Of a stretch of DNA of 36,231 nucleotides, positions 23,909 to 35,636 are shown piece by piece. The DNA lies in assembly GCA_946415045.1 (NCBI GenBank), contig CAMKRB010000003.1, positions 1-36,231 of the forward strand, written 5' to 3'. Below the pieces are notes generated by a model, which ran no database searches, was not told where the DNA came from, and was given only the letters and a program-made list of their open reading frames with translations. The stretch is from an uncultured Myxococcales bacterium (GTDB taxonomy: Bacteria; Myxococcota_A; Bradymonadia; UBA4248). Every line of letters starts with the position of its first letter. Position 1 is the first letter of the stretch. The position numbers and the translations under genes are program-made.

Positions 23909-25423
23909 ATGCAAAGACTGAGCGGTATTATTCGCAAGATTTTGTTTACGTTATTGTTTCTGATTTTACCGACGCTGGCAGTGGCGCAGGATGGTTTGCA
24001 TATCACAGGCATTGACCTTCCCGAAGAGGGTTCAAAAGCCGCCGAAGCACATGTTTCGGTGTATTTTAGTCTACGCAGCAAACAAACGCCTGTCACGGGT
24101 ATTACGAGCGACAATTGCACACTGCAGATCGATGCGAGCCCTGTGGAAATCGTCAAAGCAGAAGTCAAGCAGTTCACAGATGGCGAACGGGGAGTCGGTG
24201 TGTTGTTTGTCATTCCGATTGCCAAGAATTATTCGGAAGAAAGCTTTGGCATTCGTTCAGCACTTGACGGACTGGTTAAGAACCTGAACCGACCAGTAGA
24301 TATGCTGAATGTCGTGACGTACGACACGAATGCGGTCGCTGTAGGCTGGTCGCGGGCAAGCGAATCGGCGTTGTCGCAGGCCATCAATAACATGCAGAAC
24401 AGTGAAGTTCTTGAGCCAAACCTGTTCATGTCATTCCAACCGGCCCTGACCGCACTGCAAAGCTTGCAGAATGTTTCACAGAAATACCTGGTATTCGTCA
24501 GCGATGCCGAAGGTGCCATCGTTGGAGACAGAGACAAGGCCAACAAGCTGATTGGACAATTCACAGATGAGCTGAAGAAGAGCAACATCATGCCAATCGT
24601 GATTGCGTACAGTCCCGATGGCAAAGAGGCCATGATGAACTACACGCTGCTGCAGCGCATGGCTAACAACGTTGGTGGTGCGTTTTATATGGCCGAAGCG
24701 CCGGATCGTTTTCAGCAGGTGATTCAGCGCGATGTGCAGAACTACATCTTCGGTCAGTACATTTATGAAGCCACGCTGAACATGGACGGCAACCACTATC
24801 TTGAGCCGAACAAATACAACGTGGACTTCATCGTGAAGACCTCAAATTCGGAAGACAAGGTGAAGTACAAAATCACATGGCCGGAGCTTTCGAAGAACCG
24901 GATGTGGCTGTGGCTGACGATAATCGGCATTGTGCTGGTAGGCGGCATTGCAGCGGCAGTGATCGTAATCAGCCGGCGCAACAACGAAGAAGAGGACATC
25001 ATCGACGAGGGTCCGCAGGAAGTGTGCTGTTCGACGTGCGGCAAGACGATACCGCAGCAGCTGTATGGATTTAACGGTGAGTTCTGTCTTTCCGGCGGAT
25101 TGCCGGACTGTCCGTATTACAAGATGCCGGATCGCGGAAAGATTCAAATCACGCGAGGGCCGATGGCGGATACGACATTCTTTATCAAGAAGGACATGAC
25201 GACGATTGGATCGTATGCCGAGAATGATATCTATCTGGCCGATAAATCCGTGTCACGCAAGCATGCAGCCATCAAGGCAGACGAAGGCATGCGCTATGAG
25301 ATACGTGATTTTGGTTCATCCAACGGCGTTTACATCAACAACGAGAAGATCGAGCGCAAGTTCCTTCGGGACGGCGATTTGATTCGGTTTGGCACCGTGG
25401 AGACGGTATTCAAACTGAAATAG
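23909..25423 (+). CDS. Membrane-anchored vWA-like / zinc-ribbon / FHA protein
   Basis: The protein has 504 residues. It starts with a signal peptide (to about residue 27, ...TLAVAQ). A von Willebrand A-like domain follows (about 60-290, with LVFVSDAEGA and a DxLNVVTYD strand). Then comes one membrane helix (about 332-353, LWLTIIGIVLVGGIAAAVIVI). A cysteine cluster (CCSTCGK...C...C, about 373-400) looks like a zinc ribbon. A C-terminal FHA domain (about 410-504) has the GS, SRKHA and SSNGVYIN motifs that bind phosphothreonine. The vWA metal site DxSxS is absent: FVIPIAKNYS stands in its place. The predicted topology is periplasmic sensor part, cytoplasmic FHA. It lies just upstream of the injection-system operon but has its own promoter and terminator, so a regulatory link is only suggested by position. 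Confidence 0.8.
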   Translation: MQRLSGIIRKILFTLLFLILPTLAVAQDGLHITGIDLPEEGSKAAEAHVSVYFSLRSKQTPVTGITSDNCTLQIDASPVEIVKAEVKQFTDGERGVGVLFVIPIAKNYSEESFGIRSALDGLVKNLNRPVDMLNVVTYDTNAVAVGWSRASESALSQAINNMQNSEVLEPNLFMSFQPALTALQSLQNVSQKYLVFVSDAEGAIVGDRDKANKLIGQFTDELKKSNIMPIVIAYSPDGKEAMMNYTLLQRMANNVGGAFYMAEAPDRFQQVIQRDVQNYIFGQYIYEATLNMDGNHYLEPNKYNVDFIVKTSNSEDKVKYKITWPELSKNRMWLWLTIIGIVLVGGIAAAVIVISRRNNEEEDIIDEGPQEVCCSTCGKTIPQQLYGFNGEFCLSGGLPDCPYYKMPDRGKIQITRGPMADTTFFIKKDMTTIGSYAENDIYLADKSVSRKHAAIKADEGMRYEIRDFGSSNGVYINNEKIERKFLRDGDLIRFGTVETVFKLK

Positions 25424-25472: not shown

Positions 25473-25589
25473 AACAACAAATGATGTGAATGCGTGACAA
25501 GATTACGCAGACGTTATACAGTATAAGGTATGTATTTGGGCATTGTGCCTGTTTATGAACGCAATCTTCTGCGTGGCGGAAGATTTTCA

Positions 25590-25976
25590 ATGGGAAAAGA
25601 AGCAATGGCATTTCAGACCGAGTTTCAGTTTACACTTCCAAAAGGTTATGTGGACAAGGACGGCAATCTTCATCGCGAAGGCGTGATGCGTCTTGCGACG
25701 GCGAAGGACGAAATAGCCCCTCTGCAGGATTATCGTGTACAGGCCAACCGTGCGTATCTCGTCATCATTTTATTAAGCCGCGTCATCACCAAGCTTGGTA
25801 CGCTTCGCATGATCACACCGAACATCATTGAAGAGCTGTTCAGCTCGGATTTGGCATATCTGCAGGAATTTTACCGCAAGATCAATGAAGAAGGCAGCGC
25901 ATCGATCAAGGTGACATGTCCGGCATGCAAACACGAATTTGAAGTGGATATGGGGACAGGCCTGGGGGGGTATTAA
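25590..25976 (+). CDS. Phage-tail-like assembly chaperone of the injection system
   Basis: This protein of about 128 residues (123 if the ATG at 25605 is used) begins MAFQTEFQFTLPKGYVDKDGNLHREGVMRLATAKDEI, the pattern of the 'phage tail assembly' proteins that open many contractile injection clusters. It ends in a CPACKHEF cysteine pair and GTGLGGY. Such proteins are thought to help assemble the tail around the tape measure and are usually not in the finished particle. GCGGA precedes 25590 and GGAAAAGAAG precedes 25605; the frame is open to 25530 but that leader is not typical. The last codons contain a run of seven G directly before the stop, the proposed frameshift site that would extend it into the DUF6760-like ORF. 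Confidence 0.8.
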   Translation: MGKEAMAFQTEFQFTLPKGYVDKDGNLHREGVMRLATAKDEIAPLQDYRVQANRAYLVIILLSRVITKLGTLRMITPNIIEELFSSDLAYLQEFYRKINEEGSASIKVTCPACKHEFEVDMGTGLGGY

Positions 25977-26010
25977 GCTACCCCCTTGATAAGCTTTATC
26001 AGGAGGTAGC
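25964..26010 (+). promoter_or_regulatory. Candidate programmed -1 ribosomal frameshift signal
   Basis: G GGG GGG (25964-25970) is in the correct X XXY YYZ phase for the upstream gene. A 6-base spacer that contains the stop codon follows. Then comes a stem-loop: GCTACC (25977-25982), CC (25984-25985) and TGATAA (25987-25992) pair with TTATCA (25996-26001), GG (26002-26003) and GGTAGC (26005-26010), with one mismatch, one bulge and a 3-base loop. Heptamer, spacer and stem match known -1 sites. Confidence 0.75.
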
Positions 26011-26137
26011 GTATATCGCTTATCACTTCCATTGGGCGATAGACGACATCCTCAATATGGAGCATAAAGAGCGCCAGGTCTGGATTCGCGAGATTTCCGA
26101 GATCAACAAGGAAATCAACGAAAGCCGGGGTGGCTAA
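25970..26137 (+). CDS. DUF6760-like ORF without start codon, probably a -1 frameshift extension
   Basis: The open frame encodes 55 residues: VLS, then PLDKLYQEVAYIAYHFHW and DDILNMEHKERQVWIREI, ending ESRGG. The order PLDxLYxEVAYIAYHFHW...I..LEHxER..W..EI resembles DUF6760, a short family I associate with injection-system clusters. Between the preceding in-frame stop at 25940-25942 and the conserved segment there is no ATG, GTG or TTG, so it cannot start on its own in the usual way. A -1 shift at 25964-25970 would produce a fusion of about 177 to 182 residues with the upstream chaperone. The alternative is a one-base homopolymer error in the assembly, which would merge or separate the frames. 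The sheath gene follows after 57 bp. Confidence 0.75.
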   Translation, partial: VLSYPLDKLYQEVAYIAYHFHWAIDDILNMEHKERQVWIREISEINKEINESRGG

Positions 26138-26194
26138 CAAAGCGTCAAAGCGGGCGCGGGTTTAGTTCATGCAATAGTCGATGCAGAGGTAAAG

Positions 26195-28054: not shown

Positions 28055-28408
28055 ATGAATTGTTATCAGCCGGATGTGCCAAAGTTGTCACACCCGAAAA
28101 CGGGCTTCAGGAAGGAGTTCGTAATGGGGACAGGATTCCCCAAGAAGCGAAAACGGCGTGCGGGCAGAAACCGCGCGAAACAAGGTATAGCAAAAGGATC
28201 CGATGTGTCACAATTGACACAACACTTGGATTTGAATTTGCATATCGGAGTGGAAGGTATTTTTGGGAAAAGCAATCCCAGTAAACACAATGCTGTAAGA
28301 GCAGTAGCTGCAATCCTCAGGAGGACGGTATGGACAAGGCACCTTTGGGATCATTTGGATTTAGAGTATCGCTTGGCGGTGGAGATTTGTCATTATTCCA
28401 GGAAGTGA
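28055..28408 (+). CDS. Doubtful small basic ORF between sheath and tube
   Basis: The 117-residue frame (94 residues from a second start at 28124) has Shine-Dalgarno-like sequences before both ATGs (AAGGATGG, GGAAGGAG). From 28124 the product begins MGTGFPKKRKRRAGRNRAK, a strongly basic stretch resembling a eukaryotic nuclear-localisation signal. Against it, no family is recognised, the last 79 bases overlap the tube gene in another frame, and a second frame (28045-28284) is also open. It could be a small cargo or accessory protein, or chance. Otherwise the 27944-28329 gap holds only the hairpins noted and the inverted repeat GTGTCA-CAAT-TGACAC (about 28204-28219). Confidence 0.25.
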   Translation: MNCYQPDVPKLSHPKTGFRKEFVMGTGFPKKRKRRAGRNRAKQGIAKGSDVSQLTQHLDLNLHIGVEGIFGKSNPSKHNAVRAVAAILRRTVWTRHLWDHLDLEYRLAVEICHYSRK

Positions 28409-28749
28409 GTGGCCTGGGCGTACAGATCAATGTGAAGGATCAGCCGGAAGGCGGTATGAATTTTAGTTCGCACAAAGTGCTGGACAATGCGACGTTTAAC
28501 GATGTGACGCTGAAGCGTGGTCTGATTGGCCCGGAGATGTTCAGCTGGATCAACGACGTGGTAGCAGGTAACATTCAGCGCCGCGCGGTGAAGATTGAAG
28601 TACTGGACGACAAAGGGAAACCGGCCAAAACGTTTATTTGTATGAATGCCATTCCAGTGAAATGGGATGGTCCGACGCTTAATGTCATGCAGGATGCGAT
28701 TGCCACCGAAACACTCGTAATCGCCATTGAAGGTCTGTCGGTTAGCTAA
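28330..28749 (+). CDS. Inner tube protein of the injection system
   Basis: This 139-residue protein belongs to the T4 gp19/Hcp-like tube family (MDKAPLGSFGFRVSLGGGDLSLFQEVSGLGV, YEGGxN-type EGGMNFSSHK, VTLKRGL, DDKGKPAKTFICMNAIPVKWDGPTLN, ETLVIAIEGL). Its hexamers stack into the tube ejected by sheath contraction. AGGAGG lies directly upstream of the ATG. Only one tube gene is found; other systems often have two, the second being the baseplate-proximal ring. Confidence 0.92.
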   Translation: MDKAPLGSFGFRVSLGGGDLSLFQEVSGLGVQINVKDQPEGGMNFSSHKVLDNATFNDVTLKRGLIGPEMFSWINDVVAGNIQRRAVKIEVLDDKGKPAKTFICMNAIPVKWDGPTLNVMQDAIATETLVIAIEGLSVS

Positions 28750-28858: not shown

Positions 28859-31800
28859 ATGTCAAACAGCAGGCATCCAGATATAGAAAATGGGACGGTT
28901 GGTCGCATCCTCCGTCGCATGACCCTGGCGACGCTGGGGTTAGATGCGATGGACGGGGTGTCCGAGCAATCGTTCGACGTGATAGACAAGGCAGATTCAT
29001 TTGCTGAACGCCTGATGGGCGGGATGTCAAGTGTATTGCCCAAGATTCATACCGAATACATGGAAAGCCGTGCGACAGGTCTGGTCGATCACATTCTGAC
29101 CGGCATGACGGGGTTAAATGGCCCCAAGAGTGCGACAGATCTTGGAGACTGGCAGTACTGGTTGGATGCAGCGCTTCTGATGCTCTTTGATGAAGAAGAG
29201 GATGAGGATGAAGCTGTGTATGCATCAGCCGGCAAAGTGGCGCACGCAGCAAAGAATACGCAGCAGGTTCGAAGCGCAGCGATGCAGCAGGCATTGCGTG
29301 AACGCGTTGTTGCACTGAAGAATTCAGGGATCAAACCGTCGATGCTTCAGGCATTGTCGAATGATCAGAAACGTGCTGTGATCAGCCAGCTCAATGCAGC
29401 CCGGAAAGCAACCGCAGAGCATACCTCCGAAGCCAGCAAATTCGCCGGACAAAAGGATGCAGATTCGCGCATTGCCGCCGAACTGAGCAACAATATTAAC
29501 GTTAATGGTGCACAGCAGTTTGCAGACAGCATCAAGGCCAGCCTGTTTGGCGACAGCCAGGCAGAAAGCGCGCTGTTTGCGAGCACATTGCTCAACGTGG
29601 TCAAAGAAGCCTCGAATCACCGCAGCATTGATACAGCTGCGAGCAAAATCGAACGCATCTATGGTCAGAATGCACAGAATTCGCACCAGACATTTGTATC
29701 GCACATTGCAGACAAGGCAGCATCCGTATCCGCCAGTCTGAACGATGCAAAGCAAATTGGTGTGCCAGCCGAACACCGTGCCGAAGCAATGCGTCTTGCC
29801 GAAAACTGGACAGAGGCAGTTGCCGGTCTGAATGCGTCTGGAAAAGTCGAAACAGCAAGCGTCCGCCGCATGCTGACGACGATCGATGCGTTGGAGCGCA
29901 TTGGTGCCGTTACCCGTGAACAGGCTCATGAAATCCGCAATGCCGGTCAGAGCTATGCCCGCCACATTCTCGCCGAAGAAGTATCGCGCGACATCACAAC
30001 GATTGCCGGCCGCATTGAACAGATGGTGGGCCGTGTATCGGATGTTGCCGGCACAGAAATGGTATCGCACCGTGCAATCACCTATACGGGCAACACTCCG
30101 AACGTCGAAGCCATCCAGATTCTCAGGAATTCGGTTGCAGCAATCAGCGACAAACTCGGTTCGCTGTCCGAAACCGTTGCATCCAAAGTATTGTCAGACG
30201 GTGAGACAGCCGCGACGATGCGTTGGCAGCGCGCAGCAGAACGCTTCACGCGTATGCAGGGCATTTCTGATGACGTCGATCGCGTGCTTCTGCGCGACAT
30301 CATCGAATCTGCCGAAGCTCTTGGCAGCACCGGTGTTGTATCCGCAGGCATGGTCAAAAGCATTGTCAGCATTCCTGCTCAGATCCAGAGCCAGAATCAG
30401 ACACCTGCAGCGGTGTCCTCCATCGCAGCAGCACAGAGCAGCAATGTCTCTGCATCCCAGAGCCGTTCTGTTCAGACCATTCTCAATGGCCGCGAAGCCG
30501 ACAAATACATCCAAAATTCTGCAATCCAGATGCTCAGCCGTATTTCAAGCCGCGTCGAAGCATCCGTGAATACACTCGCAGACGAAATCACAGCATCCGG
30601 CATCCTGCGTCCGCAGCAGGCCGAATCATTCGTTTCGGATATCCGCCGTATTGCAGCACAGGGTAAAACTGCAGCTGCAACAGATTCGCTTTCGGTTATC
30701 GAGACCTCCTCGATCATCGAATCCCTCAGTGAAAAACTCGATCAGTTTGCACAGTTCACGGCGCGCAACGTCGTTGAACAGGGCTATGATGAGCTCACCG
30801 GTGAAACACCTGCATTCGTATCCACCAGCGAAACAGCCGCACAGTCTGAGAACGTCAGTGCAAGTGCTGCAATGAACGCAGCCGCAGTTTCCTCGGTACG
30901 TGAGCTGCAGGTCGCTTTACAGAAAGCCCAGCAGACAGCCCAGGCTCAGATTCGCTCGTTTGTCGAAACACAGCAGGCATCCGCAAAGCAGGCCGAAAGC
31001 CGCAAATTCTTCGAAGCACTTGCATCCGCAAATACTGTCGAAGCCATGGTGAAAGCCCAGAATGCGCTGTCAGCCCATCTGTCGGCAGAACAGCAGTCGC
31101 AGCTCAAGCAGACAATCGAAGCCGTTCGCAGCAGTGAAGCGCATCTCGAGAACGTCAGCCGTCAAATCCGCATGATCGAAAATGCGGTCAAACTCTCAGG
31201 CGATCTCAAGAATGTACTGAACAGCGGCATCCATACAACAGCGCAGACACTTGCAAACCGTCCGCAGACCGGCAGCGTCATCAGCGCTCCCGTGATGCTC
31301 AGCGATGTCCGCGTCAATGGCGACTATCTTGCATCACTCGGCCAGACACTGGCATCCTATGCAAGAATCCGCAATGAGTTTGCCAAGGTTCAGAGTGGCT
31401 CAACATCGTTGTTAAGCGGCATGGATGTATCCCGTCTCGACAAAATGCTCTCCATCGTCAGCCCGGTTTCTTCCCGGAATGTGGCGCAGGATCAGAAATT
31501 GTCAGGATTTGCAGGCATTCAGGCAGCAGCATCCATGGATACACTGCGCAAGATCCATGGCCGTACAGATCACCAGAATCTGAGCATCTCTGCAGCAGAT
31601 GCGGATTTGGTCAAGCAGTATGCAGCCATCGGAAACTTGGATATGGTCTATCAAATTGCCAATGAAGCCGGCCATTCGGCATCATCGGTATCCGAGAGCA
31701 CCGAACTGACAGGCAACACCGAACTGACGCGTTTGTTCAACACGCTTTCGGCACAGCCGGAACTTGCCAGACGCATTGCTGAAATGGCAGCAACCGGCAA

Positions 31801-33853
31801 GAGCACCCAGGCCGGCGTTCTCCAGAACAACCGCATTGCTGAGTTCCTCGACAGCATTTCGTCGTCCAATCCCGAAACGGTTGTCGGCTATGACGAGATC
31901 ATTCCCGAAACGGCATCGTTCGTATCGCAGCAATCCGCTCGCGGCCTGTATCCTTCGAACGACAACTACAGCGATTTGACTTCTATCCTTGGTTCGCGCA
32001 AAGCCATCGAACTTCACGCCTCCGAAATGGCAACAGGTCGTCCCGGCAGTGCCCAGACGCTCGGTCAAGCCATTGAACGTTGGGCAGCATCCGCTCATGG
32101 CAACGATTCGTTTGTGTCATACGGCATCAGCGAAAACGGCGAGCGCGTCAAAGTAACCCTTGGCCTGACTCAGTCATCCGGCAATGGCGGCTATCAGCTT
32201 CGCCAGAACATGGGTTCATCCTATATGCCGGTATCGTCGCGTCAGACCGTCTCCAGCCCGGTTGCAGCATCCCTGAATATCGACAAGATCAGTTCGTCCC
32301 AGACCATTTCGGGTGCCGAAGAGTTCATGCCGGTGATTGCAGGCGCCAACCAGACCTATTCTGCATCCGATGCCTCCACCGATCGCATTCTGACCTCGCT
32401 GGTCGCTTCTCTGGCCGGAAATCAGAATATTTCACAGACACTCTCTGTCGAAGGTAATACGCTCACAGCCGCACAGCAGGCGATGGTTCAGTCGGCCGTC
32501 CAGGCACAGAATGCACAGAACACGCAGAATGCCTCTTCTTCGGATTCCGCTGCATCCCAGCGCGAAGCCGCAATGCAGAACATTCTCAATCCTCGCACGC
32601 ACCAGTCTCAGGCACAGGCCAATGCTCAGGCCATTGCAGATCGCAACACCATCAGCGGTATCCTGGGTCGTCTGGGTATCCAGATCAACGCCAACCGCAT
32701 GCCCGAAACAAGCGAACGTCTGCAGCTGAACGTTGGTAACGTCGATTTCGATATGACATCGGCCGATTTCGTCAACATGGTTGCCAAACCCGCCATTTCG
32801 TCCACCAGCTTCATGGCCCCGACACTCGTGAATGCCAATAACGTGATGTTCTCAGGCTATGCCTCGCTGATGAACAGCCAGGGCGAACGCCGCAGCCTCA
32901 AATCCCTGCGCAAATCGTATGTCGAAGCCATGGCAAAATCCGGTGCTCGCAGCACGCACGCTGAGATCGGCTTCAATACGCAGTCGTTTGCAAACATCCT
33001 TGGACTGACCTCCGGATCGATCGCAAGCGATAATCGCTATCGCATGGTTAACGGCGGCTATGATGCCGACAGTTCACATGCATTTGTTTCGTCTGCATCG
33101 ATCGATGCATCCGCATCTTCGACGGCATCCGCATCCGCACCCGAAGCCCGCATCGCAGCACAGGGCCAGATGGCAGGCCAGACCGAAGAAACGCTCGCAC
33201 AGTCGATCATCGACGGACATGCACCTGTGGCCAGCACCGAATATGGCAGCAGCGTCGACTTCTCGTGGATTTCGAACCAGCTCATGCCGCAGTTCAATGC
33301 CGGCAGCAATGCTGCATCCGAAAGCCAGACAGTCGAAAAAGAGCGCCAGATCCTTGGCCGCATCGACAACATGCTCGATTATGTCGAGAATATGAGTTCG
33401 CGCAATGTCGGCGTGTTCAGCTCAAATGACACCGTCCGCGTATTGCTCGAATCGATGTCAACCGAAGGTGAACTCGGTAACAAGGGATTGCCCAAGTGGC
33501 GTCAGAAAGACACGAAAGCTGCCCGCGCGGCTCAGGCTCGCGAACTCCGCGAAGCACTCGCCAAAATCGGTGCGAACCCAATCCAGGGTACACAGCGTGT
33601 CAATGATCGCAACTACGTCAGCCCGAATCTGTTCGCAAACCAGAATCAGGCGGCAGCCCCCCTCTTCAGCGGTGGCGGTGAAAATGGCAGTGGTTCCGTT
33701 CCAACTGCGGCTTCGCACGCCAGTGGTAATACTAACAATCGCTTGGACAACAGCACCATCCCAGAGGATGATCTGCAGTTCATAGCCGAAGAAATTTATA
33801 ACAAAATCGTTGACAGTCTTAACGACGAACTCAAGCGTAGGAGGACAGAATAA
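28859..33853 (+). CDS. Giant 1664-residue helical protein, tape-measure candidate
   Basis: The protein has no recognised catalytic domain. It is rich in Ala, Ser and Gln and mostly predicted helix, with long heptad-like runs such as LQVALQKAQQTAQAQIRSFVETQ. Near residue 113 there is an acidic cluster (DEEEDEDE). The extreme C-terminus, DDLQFIAEEIYNKIVDSLNDELKRRR, is set off by a Gly/Ser/Asn-rich linker and looks like a docking helix. There are no clear membrane segments. Its place after the tube and before the LysM-type adaptor and hub is where P2-like phages encode the tape measure. If it is one, 1664 residues at 0.15 nm each predict a tail near 250 nm. Its stop overlaps the next ATG by one base (TAATG), so translation is coupled. 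A structural scaffold or exported cargo are alternatives. Confidence 0.7.
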   Translation: MSNSRHPDIENGTVGRILRRMTLATLGLDAMDGVSEQSFDVIDKADSFAERLMGGMSSVLPKIHTEYMESRATGLVDHILTGMTGLNGPKSATDLGDWQYWLDAALLMLFDEEEDEDEAVYASAGKVAHAAKNTQQVRSAAMQQALRERVVALKNSGIKPSMLQALSNDQKRAVISQLNAARKATAEHTSEASKFAGQKDADSRIAAELSNNINVNGAQQFADSIKASLFGDSQAESALFASTLLNVVKEASNHRSIDTAASKIERIYGQNAQNSHQTFVSHIADKAASVSASLNDAKQIGVPAEHRAEAMRLAENWTEAVAGLNASGKVETASVRRMLTTIDALERIGAVTREQAHEIRNAGQSYARHILAEEVSRDITTIAGRIEQMVGRVSDVAGTEMVSHRAITYTGNTPNVEAIQILRNSVAAISDKLGSLSETVASKVLSDGETAATMRWQRAAERFTRMQGISDDVDRVLLRDIIESAEALGSTGVVSAGMVKSIVSIPAQIQSQNQTPAAVSSIAAAQSSNVSASQSRSVQTILNGREADKYIQNSAIQMLSRISSRVEASVNTLADEITASGILRPQQAESFVSDIRRIAAQGKTAAATDSLSVIETSSIIESLSEKLDQFAQFTARNVVEQGYDELTGETPAFVSTSETAAQSENVSASAAMNAAAVSSVRELQVALQKAQQTAQAQIRSFVETQQASAKQAESRKFFEALASANTVEAMVKAQNALSAHLSAEQQSQLKQTIEAVRSSEAHLENVSRQIRMIENAVKLSGDLKNVLNSGIHTTAQTLANRPQTGSVISAPVMLSDVRVNGDYLASLGQTLASYARIRNEFAKVQSGSTSLLSGMDVSRLDKMLSIVSPVSSRNVAQDQKLSGFAGIQAAASMDTLRKIHGRTDHQNLSISAADADLVKQYAAIGNLDMVYQIANEAGHSASSVSESTELTGNTELTRLFNTLSAQPELARRIAEMAATGKSTQAGVLQNNRIAEFLDSISSSNPETVVGYDEIIPETASFVSQQSARGLYPSNDNYSDLTSILGSRKAIELHASEMATGRPGSAQTLGQAIERWAASAHGNDSFVSYGISENGERVKVTLGLTQSSGNGGYQLRQNMGSSYMPVSSRQTVSSPVAASLNIDKISSSQTISGAEEFMPVIAGANQTYSASDASTDRILTSLVASLAGNQNISQTLSVEGNTLTAAQQAMVQSAVQAQNAQNTQNASSSDSAASQREAAMQNILNPRTHQSQAQANAQAIADRNTISGILGRLGIQINANRMPETSERLQLNVGNVDFDMTSADFVNMVAKPAISSTSFMAPTLVNANNVMFSGYASLMNSQGERRSLKSLRKSYVEAMAKSGARSTHAEIGFNTQSFANILGLTSGSIASDNRYRMVNGGYDADSSHAFVSSASIDASASSTASASAPEARIAAQGQMAGQTEETLAQSIIDGHAPVASTEYGSSVDFSWISNQLMPQFNAGSNAASESQTVEKERQILGRIDNMLDYVENMSSRNVGVFSSNDTVRVLLESMSTEGELGNKGLPKWRQKDTKAARAAQARELREALAKIGANPIQGTQRVNDRNYVSPNLFANQNQAAAPLFSGGGENGSGSVPTAASHASGNTNNRLDNSTIPEDDLQFIAEEIYNKIVDSLNDELKRRRTE

Positions 33854-34506
33854 TGAACTTTAATGAAGCACTCAGCAAACTGTGCAAATTAACCATTGTC
33901 GCCATCGAGAATCCTGGCGGATCCGTTTCGGCATTCTACAATCCAAAGGAGGTCTCATTCTCCAAGTCTGTGAAATGGGCCCCCGATAGCCAGGGTATGG
34001 CTACGGATTATCCCGCGCTGCAGTTCACCAACGGTGATGCCATCTCTTTGTCCGTCGATCTGTACTTCGATCTCTATGAAGTTGGTGGCGATGTGCGTCC
34101 GTTCATCAACACACTCATGGCTTACTGCCTCAAGCACCCGCAGGATGGTGGCGAAGAACGTCCGCCCAAAGTCAAGGTTCTTTGGGGTGGCGAACTCCTC
34201 GCTGGTACGTCGTTCGAAGAGGCTGTTATCGACAACGTTTCAGTCACATACACGATGTTCCACGCATCCGGTGCACCCTGCCGTGCAAAAGCTACCGTCA
34301 AGATGACTCAGGCTCTCGCAGTCGGTGCATCCGTCGATGGCTCCAAACACTACAACGTCACAAGCGCCGCCCAGGGCAGCCAGATTCCTGGATTTAAGGA
34401 ATATTGCGAACAAAACAACATCGATATGACAAACCCCAAATCCTACGAAAACGGCATCAGCTATAGCTCCGCTTCCGGTTCGGATAGTGGTGGTGGTGAT
34501 AAGTAA
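33853..34506 (+). CDS. CIS tube/adaptor protein (Afp7/Pvc7-type)
   Basis: This 217-residue protein matches the N-terminal domain of Pvc7/Afp7-like proteins (KLTIVAIENPGGSVSAFYNPKEVSFSKSVKW, LSVDLYFDLYEVGGDVRPFINTL, PPKVKVLWGGELLAGTSFEEAVIDNVSVTYTMFHASGAPCRAKATVKM). They sit at the base of the inner tube and link it to the hub. The usual C-terminal LysM repeat is replaced by about 45 residues (YNVTSAAQGSQIPGFKEYC...NIDMTNP) that may be a degenerate LysM, then a Ser/Gly tail. Translation is coupled to the giant gene by a TAATG overlap. Confidence 0.82.
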   Translation: MNFNEALSKLCKLTIVAIENPGGSVSAFYNPKEVSFSKSVKWAPDSQGMATDYPALQFTNGDAISLSVDLYFDLYEVGGDVRPFINTLMAYCLKHPQDGGEERPPKVKVLWGGELLAGTSFEEAVIDNVSVTYTMFHASGAPCRAKATVKMTQALAVGASVDGSKHYNVTSAAQGSQIPGFKEYCEQNNIDMTNPKSYENGISYSSASGSDSGGGDK

Positions 34507-34556: not shown

Positions 34557-35636
34557 ATGCCCGGCATCAGAACACCAGGATTCAGAATGACGATTGGTGG
34601 AAGATCCTTTAATGAGGAACCCAAAAAGAATCACGTCGCACAGATTACTGTCGAACAGACCGCCGATGGCGCGAGCTCATTCGAAGTGATTCTCGACGAT
34701 TCTGCCAATATTTATTCTCAACAAGATCCTATCAAAGAAGGTGAGAGCTGCTCAATTTCTCTCGGTTTCGCAGAAAAAGGCGGCCCAAAGCCTGTATTCT
34801 CCGGCACCGTCAGCAGCGTCAAAATTAAACGTAAAGAAAGCGGCCGCAAGCTCATTTATGTGAAAGGTTACGATCCATTGTATGGACTCACGACCGGTAG
34901 AAAACGTCGCTCGTGGGAAGAGATTAAAGACTCCGACCTCGTCAGCGAAATCCTCTCCGATCACGGCATCAAAATCGCCGAAATCGAAGATACTGGTATC
35001 ATTCTGCCGTTCGTCGTCCAGAACAACCTCAACGACCTCAACTTCCTGCAGGAACGTGCCAAACATAATGGCTACGAACTCAAGTACGAAACCAATCCCG
35101 AACGCGATGGCGCTGTATTCGCCAAGCCCAAAAGAAGCGATGGCGGCGCTATCCTCCGCTGGGATGCTGCAAAGGAAGACGGCGCAACCGCTCTCCTGCA
35201 GCGCTGCGATTTCGATACATCCACCATCAACCAGCCAAACGCTGTCGTCGTTCGTTGGTACGATCCAGATGCAGCCGAGCCTATCATCGGTAAAGCTGCG
35301 GATGTCACCGGCGATAAAATGGGCGGCAGTATCAGACAGGGTAACACCTCTCACACCATCCAGATCAGCGATATCCCCGTCTACAGCGCCGAAGAAGCTG
35401 AACGCGTTGCGCAGAGTATTCTCGATCAGCGCGCCGGTGAATACCTCACCGGTGTTGGTCAGTGCATCGGCTGCCCCGATGTGCTCTGCGGACACAAAGT
35501 CAAAATCGAAGACGTCGGCCCCGACTTCACTGGTGATTACTATGTCACCGAATGCAAGCACGTCTTCAAAGTCGGTGGCGGCCGCGGTTTCGGTTACTGG
35601 ACTTCCTTCAAAGTCTCCAGAACCGGCAGCCACTAA
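34557..35636 (+). CDS. Baseplate hub protein (gp27/gpD-like)
   Basis: This 359-residue protein belongs to the phage late control gpD / VgrG N-terminal family. It contains AQITVEQTADGASSFEVILDD, GxxVFSGTVSSVKIKRKESGRKLIYVKGYDPLYGLTTGRKRRSWEEIKDSDLVSEIL, VQNNLNDLNFLQERAKHNGYEL and a final DYYVTECKHVFKVGGG. It should form the trimeric hub between tube and spike. It stops where Pvc8-type proteins continue into a gp5 OB-fold and needle, so the spike must be a separate gene. AAGGAGG precedes the ATG. A strong terminator follows, so this is the last gene of the operon. Confidence 0.9.
   Translation: MPGIRTPGFRMTIGGRSFNEEPKKNHVAQITVEQTADGASSFEVILDDSANIYSQQDPIKEGESCSISLGFAEKGGPKPVFSGTVSSVKIKRKESGRKLIYVKGYDPLYGLTTGRKRRSWEEIKDSDLVSEILSDHGIKIAEIEDTGIILPFVVQNNLNDLNFLQERAKHNGYELKYETNPERDGAVFAKPKRSDGGAILRWDAAKEDGATALLQRCDFDTSTINQPNAVVVRWYDPDAAEPIIGKAADVTGDKMGGSIRQGNTSHTIQISDIPVYSAEEAERVAQSILDQRAGEYLTGVGQCIGCPDVLCGHKVKIEDVGPDFTGDYYVTECKHVFKVGGGRGFGYWTSFKVSRTGSH

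Follow-up and report, generated by a model that had tools for sequence, protein, structure and literature searches.

The window, a whole contig of 36,231 bases from the genome of a gut Myxococcota of the UBA4248 group (504 contigs, 87% complete), encodes a 1664-residue protein which we regard, with a probability of about three in four, as a contractile injection system (CIS) tape measure that also carries the spike plug at its C-terminal end. Its gene lies in the slot between Cis5 and Cis7, and the product is called the slot protein below. The tape-measure reading is based on this tube-hub position, on conserved ends that enclose a middle of variable sequence and length, on a recurrent C-terminal anchor helix, on a nearby chaperone gene and on the finding of no second ruler in the CIS clusters examined. 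The preliminary description had proposed either a tape measure or a new structural part, and the former is the best supported.

Gene Content of the Window and Properties of the Slot Protein

The features of the window are listed in Table 1. The slot gene is a single frame with an ATG start and without an internal stop; it is not a chance ORF because its product is conserved with the same neighbours in relatives. The placement between tube and adaptor genes, as first described, was confirmed, with the refinement that the tube-fold protein is nearer to CIS5: the NCBIfam model for CIS5 (tube initiator/adaptor) scored 5e-21 vs. 2.8e-8 for CIS1. The slot gene stop and the adaptor start overlap as TAATG, so that the two genes share one base, the last of the slot gene and the A of the adaptor ATG. 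A TAATG or TGATG overlap is kept in most relatives examined (nearly all of the UBA4248 family, the sister family, and family f7) and is replaced by a few-base spacing in genomes G007 and G009, which bears out the coupling noticed earlier. An FHA protein is encoded upstream at 23909-25423, and an unrelated oxidoreductase-like gene 3' of the hub runs off the contig end.

Table 1. Coordinates of the slot gene, its regions, and neighbouring CIS genes in the window.
Feature	Position	Strand	Basis or remarks
Tail assembly chaperone-like protein	25530..25976	+	HMM match to a Nostoc protein, 5e-53; real start likely near 25605
DUF6760-like ORF, -1 frame	25964..26140	+	After G7 run 25964-25970
Sheath protein, 582 aa	26195..27943	+	PF04984/PF17482
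Tube-fold protein nearest CIS5	28330..28749	+	PF06841
Slot protein, proposed tape measure and spike plug in one	28859..33853	+	1664 aa, conserved ORF
Conserved N-terminal region, residues 1-112	28859..29194	+	Alignment, 41-65% identity
Helix-rich region, residues ~113-791, candidate ruler rod	29195..31231	+	AlphaFold2 model, helical periodicity
Conserved C-terminal block, residues ~1498-1605	33350..33673	+	Alignment
Predicted disordered linker, residues 1573-1632	33575..33754	+	pLDDT below 50
C-terminal putative docking helix, residues 1636-1663	33764..33847	+	pLDDT above 90 mostly; HMM matches; hydrophobic face
Cis7-type tube-initiator adaptor	33853..34506	+	PF19266 CIS_tube, 1.9e-21; start overlaps slot stop
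Hub/spike protein, Cis8-like	34557..35636	+	PF05954 Phage_GPD; weak VgrG-type NCBIfam matches

The Ala/Ser/Gln-rich composition reported initially was reproduced (Ala 14%, Ser 13%, Gln 7%), and no cysteine is present. No TM segments were predicted, and domain searches detected neither DUF4157 nor an enzymatic domain. Inside the gene, DNA repeats are short degenerate copies only. The hydrophobicity period is helical (98 degrees; 1.38 vs. 1.00 ± 0.10 in shuffles). In the AlphaFold2 models, which are of low confidence (mean pLDDT 52 and 47), residues 1-791 are about 77% helix and the whole protein ~59%; residues ~800-1630 are mostly irregular, not a clean rod. The description of the protein as helical is partly correct; the compact C-terminal helix after a disordered linker was recovered as proposed.

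Remote-homology searches of Pfam, PHROGs, NCBIfam, and the sequences of the PDB gave no match to a named tape measure; such similarity is not a defining trait because proteins of this kind diverge fast, but homology is not claimed. Foldseek comparison of the N-terminal model with viral predictions listed many tape measures among the named matches, but TM-scores of about 0.05-0.10 indicate generic helicity only, and this result was set aside.

Conservation in Related Myxococcota

Homologues of the slot protein, 1343-1812 aa long, were found with the same neighbours in all eight related genomes (seven of the same family and one of a sister family) by an alignment-based genome scan; a single-sequence genome scan gave no match. 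These relatives are metagenome bins from rumen, gut, and similar sources, named Myxococcales bacterium UBA4248 or 'Proteobacteria'. The slot protein is the longest and most divergent core protein, with a mean pairwise identity of 0.37. The sheath, tube, hub, J, and wedge proteins have identities of 0.51-0.94, and most are of nearly constant length; the adaptor alone is comparable to the slot protein in both respects (identity 0.40, CV 0.16). The N-terminal ~110 residues (consensus GT.G.LFRR.TLASLGLD...DWQYWLDA.LLMLFDEE) and the last ~165, including the C-terminal block (DYVE..S.RNVGVFS...GLPKWR...EARELR.AL.KIGA.PIQG), are best conserved, and the middle diverges fast.

The CIS genes of the UBA4248 family do not form one cluster but occupy at least three loci (the window, L032, and L078). 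Contig C139 of the same genome (L032) carries a second sheath and tube, which form a better conserved pair. Between genera and in comparison with the sister family, the second sheath (L032, L085, L086, L031) has 92-96% identity and the tube beside it 84-97%, while the window sheath shares about 52-75% with its counterparts; one of the two sheaths is thus conserved to an unusual degree. The window's own genome also has a third, isolated gp19-like tube gene next to mutS (L033, 6995-7477, minus strand). A third contig (C16) carries baseplate J, Tail_P2_I, and a CIS13-like gene; in relatives, gp25 joins them.

The sister family (G008) has a single cluster in the order sheathB, sheathA, slot protein, adaptor, hub, gp25, J, P2_I, and CIS13-like. 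In families f3 and f7, relatives at the level of the class, full clusters comprise p201, sheathB, tubeB, chaperone, DUF6760, sheathA, tubeA, slot protein, adaptor, hub, gp25, J, P2_I, and CIS13-like; their slot ORFs of 1320-2129 aa end in the same amphipathic helix of ~30 residues. The f3 homologues contain 10-12% proline and are thus not simply helical. An apparent slot-adaptor gene fusion in G020 (L116) was rejected as an artefact: open frames overlap in high-GC DNA, and a codon-position-aware call separates the two genes. Large ORFs beside the f7 clusters (L134, L125, L138) share the C-terminal motif SYAYPGGLNLExLRR and are possibly fibres or cargo.

A separate Pvc14-like gene had been named beforehand as a finding that would speak against the tape-measure reading. 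The flanks read beyond CIS13 contained no recognisable long conserved ruler-like (Afp14-like) gene, and the CIS clusters examined no second ruler candidate; at 87% completeness, the genome may hold a separate ruler elsewhere.

C-Terminal Helix in CIS of Other Phyla

Every Myxococcota slot protein of this kind has an [ED]hxxhAxEVhxxhxxxhxxExxRxG-like C-terminal sequence with hydrophobic residues at 3/4 spacing and one invariant Arg. An HMM of this helix, built from Myxococcota ends only, was run over 1905 ORFs from all loci examined. Outside the Myxococcota, it matched slot proteins of Brasilonema (1207-codon frame, 4e-5), Nostoc (524 aa, 3e-4), Paenibacillus (532 aa, 6e-4), and Kovacikia (2316 aa, 0.03), as well as the 61-aa DUF5908 (Cis6) protein of Mycetohabitans (E 0.001). 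Training sequences and truncated Myxococcota copies were the only other matches with E<0.1 among these ORFs. A Rhizobium plasmid slot ORF from a later search scored 1.8e-6. The search for DLQxIAxExY-type helices in equivalent proteins, suggested in the preliminary description, was thus positive both in Myxococcota and in other phyla. Cysteine is nearly absent (0-2 residues) in the helix-carrying slot proteins of about 500-2300 residues.

In eight non-training CIS loci, the slot ORF was top-ranked among about 20-40 ORFs each, with E <= 0.015 at Z=1000 in six; in Paraburkholderia and in the second CIS of G035, it ranked first with a score that was not significant. Where the slot content was of Afp type, absent, or of another kind, the locus mostly gave no helix match. 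Because the helix profile also matched designed helical proteins in the PDB, its signal partly reflects a generic amphipathic helix. The slot of the Treponema CIS is empty, and a Ser/Thr kinase-FHA protein of 1602 aa, encoded directly upstream of the adaptor in the Deinococcus grandis plasmid CIS (L155, 3966-8774), was ruled out as a homologue; the slot is therefore not always occupied by a tape measure. Judged by sequence, the arrangement of a slot protein with a C-terminal helix appears to be common to CIS of several phyla thought to be without a ruler.

Chaperone Gene and Putative Frameshift Site

In the plasmid CIS of Nostoc and Rhodococcus, homologues of the chaperone-like protein carry the annotation 'phage tail assembly protein'. 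The chaperone-like gene ends in CTGGGGGGGTATTAAGC, and the DUF6760-like ORF carries on in the -1 frame; no ATG, GTG, or TTG start was found at the junction. The G7 run is the only one on the plus strand of the window. In nine window genes, GGG makes up only 6.6% of the Gly codons, yet every UBA4248 locus checked has GGG for the two glycines of the site. Other Myxococcota, Nostoc, and Paenibacillus have a G5-G7 run in the corresponding position. From its sequence context, the DUF6760-like ORF is probably a programmed -1 frameshift product of the chaperone gene. A literature search found no report of a programmed -1 frameshift of this kind in CIS. In phages, the gpG/gpGT genes, with their frameshift, accompany tape measures, and the chaperone gene with its conserved, probable -1 frameshift site resembles that arrangement.

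Proposed Role and Alternative Explanations

According to the proposed mechanism, the slot protein would be made just before the Cis7 adaptor, from the overlapping gene. Its C-terminal helices would trimerise in the hub/spike cavity at the Cis5/Cis7/Cis8 junction, in the place of the Cis6 plug, and the trimer would nucleate the baseplate core. Attachment to the adaptor or hub had been suggested previously; the likeliest docking site is the Cis6 spike-plug position at this junction, rather than the adaptor in general. The N-terminal ~1600 residues would stretch along the lumen, largely helical, while tube rings stack around them, and tube growth would end when the conserved N-terminal domain meets the cap.

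The length was estimated at 0.15-0.17 nm per residue, with the whole chain assumed to be stretched in the lumen. The predicted lumen is 250 nm for 1664 residues at 0.15 nm (helix) or 283 nm at the diffocin ratio (138.8 nm/~817 residues), and 200-310 nm in the family; these values are rough because the region 800-1630 is of low confidence and homologues are proline-rich. The predicted 250-280 nm exceeds the 90-nm AlgoCIS tube two- to threefold and is similar to the Streptomyces particles. The protein was at first considered unusually long: its 1664 residues are real, but a slot ORF of 1320-2129 aa is normal in the lineage, and published CIS particles measure 230-300 nm.

The main rival explanation is a luminal cargo or effector of the Tme kind, which would dock on the spike via its C-terminal helix, fill the tube, and be injected, with a ruler role that is secondary or absent. 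Tme of Streptomyces davawensis (2247 aa) is remotely tape-measure-like, is encoded immediately upstream of the baseplate genes, and co-purifies with the spike and the tube initiator (PMC11126660), and a fast-diverging middle would fit an effector too. However, the DUF4157, TM helices, and C-terminal endonuclease of Tme were not detected in the slot protein, which ends in a predicted docking helix, not a nuclease. A slot protein is moreover present in every CIS of the family, and the clusters examined contain no other ruler candidate, so we consider the effector explanation unlikely.

The slot protein could also be a giant Cis6, that is, an enlarged plug and assembly nucleator only, whose extension has another structural role while the length is set by the cap or another ruler. 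Its gene does occupy the Cis6 slot, and a Cis6 of 50-52 aa suffices as a plug in AlgoCIS and Anabaena, but extensions of 500-2300 residues with conserved N- and C-termini are then unexplained, and no Afp14-like gene was seen past Cis13 in clusters with sequenced flanks, which makes this explanation very unlikely. A further objection concerns the spread across phyla: the terminal helix may be a convergent amphipathic one and the slot proteins of different phyla unrelated, which would leave a tape-measure role of the window protein possible. The scores of designed PDB proteins against the helix profile agree with convergence; the first rank of the slot ORF in the non-training loci, the location of the matches at the extreme C-terminus of slot proteins, and the E value of 7e-6 for the Streptomyces profile argue against it, and we find it improbable.

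What is known of CIS length control comes chiefly from Afp/PVC, whose ruler has a late gene of its own, and lineage II CIS are often without recognised plug and ruler genes. If the slot protein is a tape measure, the C-terminal anchor together with the gene slot would provide a simple rule for finding the ruler in such clusters. Gene length would then predict particle length, from about 80 nm (524 aa) to about 350-390 nm (2316 aa), and length control would become testable by in-frame deletions.

Comparison with Known Systems

Cis6/Alg6 forms a trimeric plug in the tube-facing spike cavity of AlgoCIS and Anabaena particles, where it touches Cis7 and Cis8 and is required for assembly (PMC8894135, PMC8894136). 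The slot protein resembles the Cis6 plugs (Afp6/Pvc6/Alg6, DUF5908, PF19265) in its position between Cis5 and Cis7, its terminal amphipathic helix, and its proposed trimer in the hub/spike cavity. The known plugs have about 50-71 aa, whereas here the helix ends a 1664-aa chain whose last 60 aa gave no match to PF19265. No DUF5908 protein above the cut-off was found as a separate plug in 13 genomes. The solved Pvc6, Algo6, and Asl3322 chains (50-59 aa, three copies each) match plasmid Cis6 proteins with 1.8e-7, 0.015, and 0.86, respectively, the match of Asl3322 being weak. The helix HMM matched one of four tested Cis6 proteins, and hhalign gave an E value of 0.0018 but a probability of 15%. 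The link between the slot protein and Cis6 is weak by sequence and is based mainly on gene position.

The diffocin tape measure is a trimer ~1388 Å long with a C-terminal helix anchored on the spike (PMC10996793). The slot protein is similar to the tape measures of phages, R-type particles, and diffocin (CD1366) as a long, predicted helix-rich chain of variable length, encoded in the tail cluster and with a putative C-terminal anchor on the spike/hub; compared with CD1366 (~817 aa), it shows no sequence similarity, has no TM region, and is about twice as long. Since the Cis6 plug and the tape-measure tail occupy equivalent places, the simplest reading of a protein that is encoded in the Cis6 slot, ends like a plug, and has a long extension is that it serves as both. 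With Afp14/Pvc14 of eCIS lineage I, the slot protein shares the presumed ruler role, but the Afp14 gene follows Cis13 and is separate from the plug, whereas here one gene precedes Cis7. Like Tme, the slot protein is encoded by the longest ORF, immediately 5' of the baseplate genes. Sle1 of Streptomyces lividans is likewise a tape-measure-like coiled-coil CIS protein; it differs in that its gene lies 5' of the sheath gene, that a TM hairpin is predicted, and that its C-terminus inhibits growth.

Three Streptomyces-type plasmid CIS encode a proline/alanine-rich, poorly annotated protein of 906-1381 aa between DUF6760 and Cis5, one gene earlier than the slot. It ends in DELARRLxxPVxRLLRTELRRGRxRxGR; the profile of this end matched the other ends with an E value of 7.3e-6 and a probability of 84%, while single-profile HMM scores in the Streptomyces loci were not significant. 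In the Streptomyces clavuligerus plasmid CIS, the 1381-aa ORF (L179, 11795-15940) is absent from the gene table, and it may be the ruler there. The CIS particles of S. coelicolor are uniformly 268 nm long, and a tape-measure gene was stated to be absent (PMC12237407; also PMC10066040); the ruler assignment for this species is a lead drawn from the related plasmid clusters. We tentatively suggest, at somewhat less than even odds, that many CIS beyond the Afp/PVC lineage combine plug and ruler in a single protein, that Afp/PVC split the two into Cis6 and Cis14, and that the missing Streptomyces ruler is the protein between DUF6760 and Cis5 of the plasmid clusters.
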